5,276 nucleotides of DNA from a bacterium (GTDB taxonomy: Bacteria > UBA9089 > CG2-30-40-21 > SBAY01). This document shows, piece after piece, positions 2,488-4,954 of this stretch. Within the stretch, counting starts at the first letter, position 1, and every line of letters begins with the position of its first letter. Position numbers and translations under genes: made by a program. Below the pieces are notes generated by a model. The model was not told where the DNA came from, did no database searches, and saw only the letters and a list, made by a program, of their open reading frames with translations. Location of the stretch: NCBI GenBank assembly GCA_040757115.1, contig JBFLYA010000259.1, positions 1 through 5,276 on the forward strand, written 5' to 3'.

Positions 2488-3378
2488 TCAATCTTGAAGA
2501 GGCACTATTCTTCTGTATGCCTCAAGATATTTTTCAGAGGTCTTTTTTATTATGCTATCTGGAAGTGTTGGGGCAGGGGGATTTTTATCCCAGTTGATTT
2601 TTTCTAAGTAATCTCGGACAAATTGTTTATCAAAACTTACCTGAGCTCTACCTGAACAATAATCATCCATTGTCCAAAAACGGGATGAATCAGATGTCAA
2701 AAGTTCATCTATCAAAATAATTTTATCTTCACAAATTCCAAACTCAAATTTCGTATCAGCCAGGATTAGTCCTTTTGCCTCTAACTCGTTACTGGCTAAT
2801 TCAAAAATCTTCAAACTTATCTCTTTTAAATATTTTGTCGTGTCAACTCCAACCATATCCTGGACATCCATCTCAGTTATATTAATATCATGTCCAAATG
2901 TTGCCTTTGTGGCTGGAGTAAAGATAGGTTCAGGTAATTTTGCGGATTCTGTAAGTCCTGTTGGCAGTTCAACTCCGCAGACAGATTGGGTTTGTTGATA
3001 TTCCTTCCAGCCTGAACCACTTAAATATCCCCGCACGACACACTCTACTGGTAATGGTTTCGCCTTTTTGACTAACATTGACCTTCCGGATAATAAATGC
3101 TTATAGGGAAAGAATTCTCCTGAAAATTTTTCTACATCGCCGGTAATTAAATGATTGTTGATAACATCCTTTGTCCGATTAAACCAATATAAAGAGAGGG
3201 CAGTCAACACTTTACCTTTATGTGGGATACCATTTGGCAGAATGACATCAAAGGCTGAAATTCTATCCGTGGCGATGATTAGAAGTTTACCATCAAATTC
3301 ATAAATATCCCTCACCTTACCCTTAGAATAAGATTTTAAGTCTTTTAAATCAGTTTCCAAAATTATCAGTTCTTCCAT
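2488..3378 (-). CDS. purC: Phosphoribosylaminoimidazole-succinocarboxamide synthase (SAICAR synthetase), long form
   Basis: This soluble enzyme joins CAIR and aspartate with ATP to give SAICAR in de novo purine synthesis. The 296-aa product has the family's motifs in order: GKVRDIYE (20-27, nucleotide-binding strand), TDRISAFD (37-44), VECVVRGYLSGSGWKEY (111-127), PIFTPATKA (151-159), ILADTKFEFG (205-214) and DELLTSDSSRFW (224-235). The length and the GYLSGSGW insert match the roughly 300-aa form typified by yeast Ade1, found in many bacteria, and not the roughly 240-aa E. coli/B. subtilis form. The ATG at 3378 has a good Shine-Dalgarno (GAGGTGA, 7 nt upstream). It converges on the TPR gene with a 25-bp gap. 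Upstream, the inverted-repeat cassette ends only 32 bp before the start codon, so its promoter is either inside the cassette or beyond it; I see no convincing -35/-10 pair. No lesions are seen. Confidence 0.97.
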   Translation of the reverse strand: MEELIILETDLKDLKSYSKGKVRDIYEFDGKLLIIATDRISAFDVILPNGIPHKGKVLTALSLYWFNRTKDVINNHLITGDVEKFSGEFFPYKHLLSGRSMLVKKAKPLPVECVVRGYLSGSGWKEYQQTQSVCGVELPTGLTESAKLPEPIFTPATKATFGHDINITEMDVQDMVGVDTTKYLKEISLKIFELASNELEAKGLILADTKFEFGICEDKIILIDELLTSDSSRFWTMDDYCSGRAQVSFDKQFVRDYLEKINWDKNPPAPTLPDSIIKKTSEKYLEAYRRIVPLQD

Positions 3379-3392: not shown

Positions 3393-3410
3393 AATTCCCT
3401 TATTTTGGAT

Positions 3411-3450
3411 TTTGTAACCGTTCACCGCAAGATGCCACAGAGACGCAGAG
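3411..3450 (+). repeat. Left inverted-repeat arm of the GxxExxY cassette
   Basis: It contains TTTGTAACCGTTCA (3411-3424), then ACCGCA, a short spacer, and CAGAGACGCAGAG (3438-3450). Its outer edge is 32 bp from the purC start codon, so the arm forms the purC upstream region. The GxxExxY frame remnant ends 7 bp inside the arm. Confidence 0.8.
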
Positions 3451-3457
3451 AAGAAAA

Positions 3458-3672
3458 TTAAAATTTATGGACGATACGCTTTAGTCACAATCTAATCTAA
3501 CTCCTTTGTATCTTACAGGTAATTCAACCTGCCTTTTAAAATGTAACCCTAATATTGATAACTCATAACATAAACATTCTTCATAGGCAGATTCCAACAA
3601 ACCTGCTCCCAATGTTTTATGTATTTCAATGGCTGCACCAATAATCTTTTCTGTTATCTGATTTATTTCCAT
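3458..3672 (-). pseudogene. GxxExxY protein (PD-(D/E)XK-like) remnant with internal deletion
   Basis: The ATG at 3672 opens 63 codons ending at TAA 3481-3483. The product clearly matches the N-terminal half of GxxExxY proteins (Pfam PDDEXK_3 as I recall): [29 protein letters not shown], with the name-giving motif at Gly24, Glu27 and Tyr30, then [17 protein letters not shown]. Full members are about 120-130 aa; the second half, with the presumed nuclease Asp and ExK residues, is missing. One base out of frame, minus-strand codons 3484-3461 read LKRIVHKF followed by TAA at 3460-3458, which resembles the usual C-terminal tail (IKRIV-type) of the family. I infer an internal deletion of roughly 55-60 codons plus a frame change between LDC and IKRIV, leaving both ends. 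The 63-aa frame could still be translated, but no strong Shine-Dalgarno precedes the ATG (AGAGAAGAT lies close upstream). Catalytic activity is very unlikely. The function of even intact members is uncertain. Confidence 0.8.
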
Positions 3673-3685
3673 ATCTTCTCTGTTC

Positions 3686-3727
3686 CTCTGCGTCTCTGCG
3701 GTAAAGGACCACCTGAACGGTTACAAA
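3686..3727 (-). repeat. Right inverted-repeat arm of the GxxExxY cassette
   Basis: Read on the minus strand from the outer edge, it gives TTTGTAACCGTTCA (3727-3714), an 11-bp non-matching insert, then ACCGCAGAGACGCAGAG down to 3686. It mirrors the left arm and lies 30 bp downstream of the exchanger stop codon and 13 bp before the GxxExxY start. Confidence 0.8.
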
Positions 3728-3728
3728 T

Positions 3729-3742
3729 ATCAAAAATCAAAA
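3729..3742. repeat. Two copies of heptamer ATCAAAA beside the cassette
   Basis: ATCAAAA occurs twice in tandem (3729-3735, 3736-3742), or TTTTGAT read on the minus strand. It directly abuts the outer right arm of the cassette. The tract is short and low-complexity, so it may be chance. I list it because longer 7-bp-period repeats occur at the right end of the window. Confidence 0.4.
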
Positions 3743-3757
3743 GTCTAAACTACACAT

Positions 3758-4954
3758 TTACCCCTTCCGTTTAATTAATAATCCTTCCACAATCAACGAA
3801 AGCAAACCTTTTAATCGCGTCTTATCTTTAACTAAAATAAAAATGGTTAAGATTAAATAAAGGAAACTATAAATCAACCGTATTTCTTTTGAAGGGAGTA
3901 GTAATTGAGTAAAAAACAGGATGAATATAATCAACGCCTCTTTTACCGACAGATGGAGATTAACCAGAATTGAGACTGCAAAGGCAGACTGTGCCGCGGT
4001 AAGGAATATCTCTTCTCTTTGTCGGTCATCTATGCACATCAATTCTATCTTCCCACTGGAGATACAGAAAATAACCGGTATTAGTCCAACAAGGAGTGTC
4101 CATTGATTTACTTTGGAGGAGATTAAAGTTCCTAATCCCATGGTAGGTTGTGCTTTGAGGACAAACAAAGAAGCGGCAATAAGCTCAGGCGCCTCAGAGG
4201 CAAGTGGGGCTATCCATTGGACAAGGATAAACTCTTCTATCTTAAAGATTCTACCTGTAGTAATTAATCCCTCGGCAAAAGGTTTTGCGGAAATGAAAAT
4301 AAGAAATCCCGCATATAAAAATAAGGAGATAACTGTTATTCGTCTTGTCGTCTGAGGAAGATTACCAATATTTTCTGGCACACCAATGAGTTCTGGTTCG
4401 ATTATTTTTGCCCTGGCGGCTGAGGTGATATACAGGACAAACAGTAATACAAAAATTATCGCATCAAATATAGCTAAAGAGCCTTTAATAGGAATAATAA
4501 AAGAATACAAAGTCGCCATACACAGATATGATAACTCTATTTTATGTGATTCTTCCAATTCAATACCTGGAGCCTTTTTCGTTATCCAGTAAAGGATGAC
4601 AACAAGAGACCAACCACATCCTATTAAGAGTCGATTGGCGCCGGTCATATTTGCGGTGGCATACGGAATATAAGATGGATTTTTCCCTCCCATCCATGTA
4701 AAATACATATCCACGGCGTATTCAGGCAAGACGGCGATTAAGGCTAAAAAGGCTAAGGCTAAAACCTGGGAGACATCTTTTTGAGCGGATTCAGATGCCC
4801 AGCAGAGTAAAAATGCCGCACAGACAATTCCTATGCCGGAAAGACACACGGTCAAAATCGAATAGACTTCCCAATCCCAGCCTGAAATTCTTAAGATTAC
4901 CCAAATTATAGGCAGACAAATTGTGCCCCAGAGTATAAACCAATTTCTTTTCAT
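3758..4954 (-). CDS. CaCA-family sodium/calcium exchanger-like membrane protein
   Basis: This is a 398-aa polytopic inner-membrane protein with about 11 hydrophobic segments (roughly 6-23, 31-53, 64-85, 104-125, 141-156, 159-179, 206-223, 240-265, 274-299, 318-333, 337-377) in two halves. CaCA exchangers carry two related alpha repeats with acidic and Asn/Ser ion ligands. Here alpha-1 is about 64-120 (LIAVLPEYAVDMYF with Glu78, then ANMTGANRLLIG with Asn107). Alpha-2 is about 246-292 (IAPLASEAPELIAAS with Glu254/Glu257, then TLISSKVNQWTLLVG with Asn283). A hydrophilic loop at about 180-203 separates the halves. The family usually moves Ca2+ out of the cytoplasm against Na+ or H+; the ion here is not determined. 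The alpha repeats are divergent: SKVNQW replaces the common GSN pattern. The length is somewhat above the roughly 320-aa YrbG type. A good AGGAG lies 5 nt before ATG 4954. The gene is co-directional with purC but 379 bp from it. Confidence 0.82.
   Translation of the reverse strand: MKRNWFILWGTICLPIIWVILRISGWDWEVYSILTVCLSGIGIVCAAFLLCWASESAQKDVSQVLALAFLALIAVLPEYAVDMYFTWMGGKNPSYIPYATANMTGANRLLIGCGWSLVVILYWITKKAPGIELEESHKIELSYLCMATLYSFIIPIKGSLAIFDAIIFVLLFVLYITSAARAKIIEPELIGVPENIGNLPQTTRRITVISLFLYAGFLIFISAKPFAEGLITTGRIFKIEEFILVQWIAPLASEAPELIAASLFVLKAQPTMGLGTLISSKVNQWTLLVGLIPVIFCISSGKIELMCIDDRQREEIFLTAAQSAFAVSILVNLHLSVKEALIIFILFFTQLLLPSKEIRLIYSFLYLILTIFILVKDKTRLKGLLSLIVEGLLIKRKG

Follow-up and report, generated by a model that had tools for sequence, protein, structure and literature searches.

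The window, meaning the whole 5,276-nucleotide stretch of DNA analysed here, is contig C259 of a 4.3 Mb source genome assembled in 462 contigs. It contains purC, which encodes SAICAR synthetase (2488..3378, minus strand; PF01259, E 3.2e-72), and a gene for a Na+/Ca2+ exchanger family protein (3758..4954, minus strand; PF01699, E 2.7e-25). Two nested inverted repeats occupy the intergenic region between these genes. The outer repeat (3403-3424 / 3714-3735) is perfect over TTTGTAACCGTTCA, and the inner repeat (3435-3450 / 3686-3701) pairs at 15 of 16 positions. As a sequence-only reading of this DNA had noted, they enclose nothing but a GxxExxY remnant. This remnant, on the minus strand (3481..3672), comprises 63 N-terminal codons of a PD-(D/E)XK protein (TIGR04256/PF13366) and was identified by profile matches, to positions 1-58 of the 116 in TIGR04256 (E 1.4e-19) and to Pfam PF13366 (E 8e-19).

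The element as a whole spans 311 bp (3414..3724, minus strand when oriented by its gene) and is bounded by GTAACCGTTCA and TGAACGGTTAC. The left outer terminal inverted repeat, GTAACCGTTCA, is an IS66-type end of 11 bp (3414..3424, plus strand); the right one (3714..3724, minus strand) is its reverse complement. These 11 bp are what is left of the longer outer repeat proposed earlier: they are shared, and extend further inward in related copies, whereas the adjoining TTT/AAA varies between copies and belongs to the flank. Inside these ends lie the inner arms. The left inner arm, downstream of the gene, is made of degenerate tandem units, CCGCA.. CCACAGAGACGCAGAG (3425..3453, plus strand), and was recognized by its inverted match to the right arm; intact copies have CCGCAGAGACACAGAGACGCAGAG at this position, and units of this type recur at GxxExxY genes of 17 phyla. 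The right inner arm, CCGCAGAGACGCAGAGGAACAGAGAAG (3674..3703, minus strand), is the upstream arm and lies directly 5′ of the start codon.

The window copy aligns end to end with a 472-bp copy elsewhere in the source genome (C120), except for an internal deletion of 163 bp. The junction of this deletion is at 3481..3482, corresponding to positions 82|83 of the query (window 3400-3740) in the full-length copies C26 and C120. Because these 163 bp are missing, the window protein is cut short ahead of the catalytic D, ExK and QxxxY, all absent from this copy; the remnant stops before D62. The window copy is an internally deleted, dead derivative of the 472-bp element, and this copy itself has no target duplication. 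In two genomes of the same family (G006 and G007), purC and the exchanger gene adjoin without the element, which supports the sequence-only reading. In the genus-mate G005, the purC contig ends just before the element position and hence is uninformative on insertion.

An IS66-type carrier in the source genome

The end sequence GTAACCGTTCA occurs 553 times in the source genome, as compared with 8 occurrences of a reversed control pattern, and many of these ends are arranged as inverted pairs. Among 127 candidate end pairs at sampled loci, 24 have exact direct repeats of 8 bp immediately outside the ends; target duplications of 4-7 or 9-11 bp were found at none of the same 127 pairs. The genome also contains a 1,563-bp IS66-family element with the same ends (L061:893-2455; PF03050, E 1.9e-39), the transposase gene of which is broken by two in-frame stops. 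IS66 ends begin with GTAAGCG, and 8-bp repeats are left on insertion (PMC11946415). A GTAACCG variant of the IS66-type end is known as well (GTAACCGTCCGGGCA; PMC12888890). Both ends of the window element begin with GTAA, as IS66-type terminal inverted repeats do. The GTAACCGTTCA ends, the 8-bp duplications and the IS66-family element with the same ends together identify the local carrier as an IS66-type nonautonomous element, and the window element, taken alone, is a further member of this known type. It had been suggested, from the letters of the window, that the unit lacks a classical transposase; the ends and duplications point instead to a classical IS66 transposase, acting in trans, as the likely mover here.

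Full-length copies in the source genome measure 472 bp, one with an open GxxExxY frame (C26) and one with a single stop (C120). Many shorter copies retain only the start and end of the element, from which it follows that MITEs in this genome are deletion derivatives. The same kind of ends, again with 8-bp duplications, also carry S23 genes (L073, L075, L076, L084). There are 68 GxxExxY matches in the source genome, and intact copies of other GxxExxY subfamilies have different outer ends, or lack them, while their inner arms follow the same design.

We considered whether the outer GTAACCGTTCA is the defining end of GxxExxY elements, and this can be ruled out: it is a local IS66-type end, found on S23 genes too, and in other phyla the inner arms occur alone. 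Hence, the earlier definition of the GxxExxY unit by its outer TTTGTAACCGTTCA arm does not hold. Another repeated end, TCGACCTGTGAAATAGG, surrounds one GxxExxY subfamily in the source genome (L038-L040, L063) and recurs elsewhere in that genome.

Inner arms and GxxExxY genes across phyla

GxxExxY proteins are widespread and multi-copy and have no known function. We analyzed 80 named GxxExxY loci from 17 phyla (two archaeal) and find that the arms follow a common design, with short tandem units upstream of the gene and their inverted complement downstream. Within 250 bp of the gene, tandem CRCNNAG units are present in the sense orientation upstream at 66 of the 80 loci, in the antisense orientation downstream at 64, and on both sides at 57; shuffles predict 0.2 of 80. 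The number of motif pairs per locus is 1.7 in the first 250 bp, versus about 0.1 or less further out. Strings resembling GCAGAGACGCAGAG, which the sequence-only reading placed near such genes in other bacteria, thus do recur: many phyla have them, inverted and a short distance from the gene. A typical GxxExxY-plus-arms unit is 415-530 bp long and starts with TTCACC or similar; the unit of which the window has a decayed copy measures roughly 430-470 bp. The individual arm units end in GAG/AAG and are placed just before the start codon. No common ends outside TTCACC/GGTGAA were seen at the named loci of other phyla.

In a larger set of 268 genes, which adds to the named loci others from the phylum of the window and from samples of Acidobacteria and Bacteroidetes, inverted arms exceed the 99th percentile of shuffled flanks at 77% of loci, as compared with 2.0% of 297 control ORFs from the same loci. 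Within one element, the arm-to-arm match averages 21.8, versus 10.8 when arms are exchanged between elements (commonest arm class; p 3e-57), indicating that both arms of an element change together. Fourfold-degenerate sites are saturated across phyla, at 27% identity, and the unit still reads C-R-C-N-R-A-G, which implies that the arms are constrained and not merely young. Chance or assembly artefact is ruled out by these cross-phylum statistics together with the genome counts and target duplications described above. We found no description of GxxExxY arms in the open-access literature. At two loci (G230:C1:1593381-1594196 and G292:C4:68683-69764), two GxxExxY genes lie in tandem, possibly as a result of recent local duplication.

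Arm type follows the protein rather than the host. Between phyla, arm similarity rises with protein identity (Spearman 0.26-0.32; 0 of 500 permutations as high). On a protein tree of 174 elements, the unit's final base, either G or T, changes 4 times, far fewer than in shuffled data (mean 31.6, minimum 28), whereas host group changes 35 times on the same tree. Such few changes of arm class, set against many changes of host group, indicate that the gene travels between phyla in company with its arms. Each protein subfamily has an arm unit of its own, and the fact that the repeat follows the protein and not the host suggests that the GxxExxY-plus-arms units are an undescribed family of mobile elements. 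The GxxExxY gene with its inverted tandem-unit arms forms a unit of long standing that has spread by horizontal transfer and is present in at least 17 bacterial and archaeal phyla, which bears out the earlier proposal that these genes are carried in small inverted-repeat units. Arm class is tracked by the residue three positions after the GxxExxY tyrosine (Y-x-x-C/A), Cys being associated with units that end in G and Ala with units that end in T (115/134 against 3/33, p 6e-17, over 167 elements, by a statistic that ignores relatedness). This position is a candidate specificity residue. Part of the coupling between protein and arms could reflect co-inheritance of a linked gene and its arms, although the saturation of fourfold sites argues against mere ancestry.

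The GxxExxY protein is under purifying selection, with a median dN/dS of 0.09 in 11 pairs, and its catalytic D, ExK and QxxxY are invariant. No solved structure matched GxxExxY by sequence. A structure model of the L160 protein (mean pLDDT 96) is best matched in Foldseek by lambda exonuclease (6m9k, E 1.2e-3) and by SSO0001, a Cas4 protein (4ic1); in VIA-align, it scores Z 9.8 against 4ic1 and about 7 against several further nucleases. On this model, the protein is predicted to be a PD-(D/E)XK nuclease akin to lambda exonuclease and Cas4. Although they are widely transferred between phyla, GxxExxY proteins of this subfamily were found, at the cut-offs used, in none of 50,697 phage records and in only 4 of 72,556 plasmids. 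A plasmid lead from Bacteroides finegoldii was discarded, as the gene lies between radA and housekeeping genes and looks chromosomal.

Gene-less arm pairs and the possible role of the protein

Arms also occur away from GxxExxY genes. In 27 of the 34 genomes with GxxExxY loci, a strict arm pattern is present in multiple copies. Among 149 genomes of one phylum, GxxExxY is present in 26 of the 30 with at least three arms, versus 28 of the 119 others (p 2.4e-10); the same set includes four arm-bearing genomes without any GxxExxY match. The arms sampled are for the most part inverted pairs of 60-130 bp without a gene that end in ATTCACC/GGTGAAT, and dispersed doublets of this size are seen in G019, G044, G057, G115, G157 and G194. 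At these arm-only copies, we saw no target duplications beyond expectation and no empty-site pair that would attest direct insertion. The arms at the gene share their repeat with the solo arms in G019 and G157 but not in G115, and in genomes with GxxExxY the presence of CRCNRAG arms at the gene does not predict the number of solo arms counted with one narrow fixed pattern (p 0.46), which speaks against a simple model. G115 (L270-L279) has 122 matches to a CGCAGAG-type arm pattern, and the only GxxExxY gene found there has CGCGAAA arms; the enzyme matching its solo arms is missing, lost or unassembled. In G044 (L251-L258) and G057 (L262-L268), the arm pairs are embedded in longer conserved repeats, so the dispersed unit in these genomes is larger than the arm pair.

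How can these observations be reconciled? The explanation that we favor, tentatively and with not quite even confidence, has two layers. The outer layer would be the IS66-type ends of the source genome, presumably mobilized by an IS66 transposase acting in trans, which would generate the 8-bp target duplications. The inner layer would be the GxxExxY gene with its inverted arms, an old horizontally transferred unit with its own arm unit in each protein subfamily. The most likely reason for this match of arm unit to protein would be that the GxxExxY nuclease recognizes its own arms as DNA, either as paired arms or as hairpins, and it may bind, cut and mobilize them. Such recognition would promote the spread or retention of arm-bounded DNA, namely its own gene and the gene-less 60-130 bp pairs. 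In this respect, the role of the protein toward the arms would parallel that of RAYT transposase toward REPINs, and it is by analogy with that system (PMC3116915) that we extend arm recognition to protein-driven spread. Several results weigh against this explanation: neither empty sites nor target duplications were seen at arm-only copies, gene and arms may in part be coupled by co-inheritance, gene arms do not predict the solo-arm count, the gene of G115 does not match its solo arms, four arm-bearing genomes have no GxxExxY match, and S23 genes, although they do not encode nucleases, have similar arms.

It is also conceivable, though in our judgment unlikely, that the arms and gene simply ride on ordinary DDE-type elements, IS66-type here and others elsewhere, with the protein playing no role in movement and the solo pairs being MITEs. 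Movement in the source genome is clearly IS66-type, S23 genes and MITEs without a gene have these ends too, and the MITEs there derive from the GxxExxY element by internal deletion; the larger repeats around the arm pairs of G057 and G044 fit this scenario as well. Yet a passenger would not be expected to keep its arm units matched to protein subfamily across 17 phyla, nor to be under a dN/dS of about 0.09. Moreover, DDE transposition normally leaves target duplications, which are lacking at arm-only copies, and the only ends seen to be shared in other phyla are TTCACC/GGTGAA.

No more probable is a role at the RNA level, similar to that of rRNA intervening sequences, in which the arms pair in the transcript as a long stem around the gene, hiding the ribosome-binding site or serving as a substrate of RNase III, and this RNA is either the target of the protein or its regulator. 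The intervening sequence of Coxiella 23S rRNA is 428 nt long and consists of an S23 ORF between complementary ends (PMC4990558), much like the GxxExxY unit in size and layout. S23 genes (PF05635, a four-helix bundle) outside this setting are armed too: we find them between inverted tandem-unit arms in the source genome (L066-L085) and in Bacteroidetes (L421-L450), where 16 of 30 have inverted arms. Their arm units are mostly 7 bp (e.g. GCAGAGG, ATAGTTT, CAAAATT, GTGTCGG) and differ from element to element. S23 proteins are not nucleases yet are similarly armed, and therefore arms need not mean nuclease substrates; since the parallel is real in these data, any eventual model has to account for comparable arms around two unrelated proteins. 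The position of the GAG/AAG unit ends just before the start codon would also suit an RNA stem. Against these points, no inspected copy lies in rRNA, an Rfam search matched no known family, the fold predicted for the protein most resembles DNA exonucleases and Cas4, and the gene-less arm pairs are dispersed as DNA repeats. A defence or addiction module, in which a restriction-like or toxin-like nuclease has the arms as its regulatory or self-protection sites, would agree with the PD-(D/E)XK fold shared with restriction enzymes and with the patchy horizontal distribution, but is very improbable given that the near absence from phages and plasmids, the multi-copy, dispersed gene-less arms and the internally deleted derivatives are all unlike typical mobile defence genes.

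Returning to the two-layer explanation, a bolder and more doubtful version may be formulated, under which mobile DNA of an undescribed class would have GxxExxY proteins as its founding enzymes. A Cas4/lambda-exonuclease-like nuclease would recognize its own tandem-unit inverted arms and copy or retain the DNA bounded by them, with no DDE, HUH, serine or tyrosine transposase involved; the subfamilies would differ in arm specificity (G or T units, tracking Cys/Ala), and alongside them the S23 four-helix-bundle proteins would make up a parallel class, with arms of 7 bp. The pan-phylum GxxExxY-arm unit would potentially be a new class if it turns out to be driven by its protein. In any case, the cognate arms, the protein-linked arm type and the scattered gene-less pairs bring together many intergenic palindromes that had lacked an explanation and an orphan family of nucleases in a single system open to testing, with a link to the long-standing question of the movement of S23-encoding intervening sequences.

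Relation to known systems

The protein family itself is described by TIGR04256 (GxxExxY) and PF13366 (PDDEXK_3), which include the cargo of the element and its D, ExK and QxxxY motifs. These models cover the protein alone. Like IS66-family nonautonomous elements (MITEs or mobile insertion cassettes), the window element has GTAA ends, 8-bp duplications among its relatives, a related IS66 element and a passenger gene without a transposase. It differs from them in that the cargo is a GxxExxY unit with inner arms of its own, and outside this phylum the unit lacks IS66-type ends.

With the 23S rRNA intervening sequences that contain an S23 ORF (PMC4990558), the GxxExxY unit shares a length of about 430 nt and a single small gene between complementary termini. 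Unlike these, it does not lie in rRNA, the window element being located between purC and the exchanger gene and not in a 23S rRNA helix; its protein belongs to a different family, and its arm period is 8-10 bp rather than 7 bp.

Finally, the unit resembles REPINs and their RAYT genes (PMC3116915), in which a gene is likewise flanked by inverted short sequences and accompanied by many dispersed intergenic doublets that can form hairpins, with no target duplication seen. The GxxExxY arms, however, are tandem units of 8-10 bp, the unit is present in at least 17 phyla and is transferred horizontally, and the protein is of the PD-(D/E)XK type and not an HUH Y1 transposase. Should the protein prove to be the driver, the task performed by Y1 transposases in the REPIN system would here fall to a PD-(D/E)XK nuclease.
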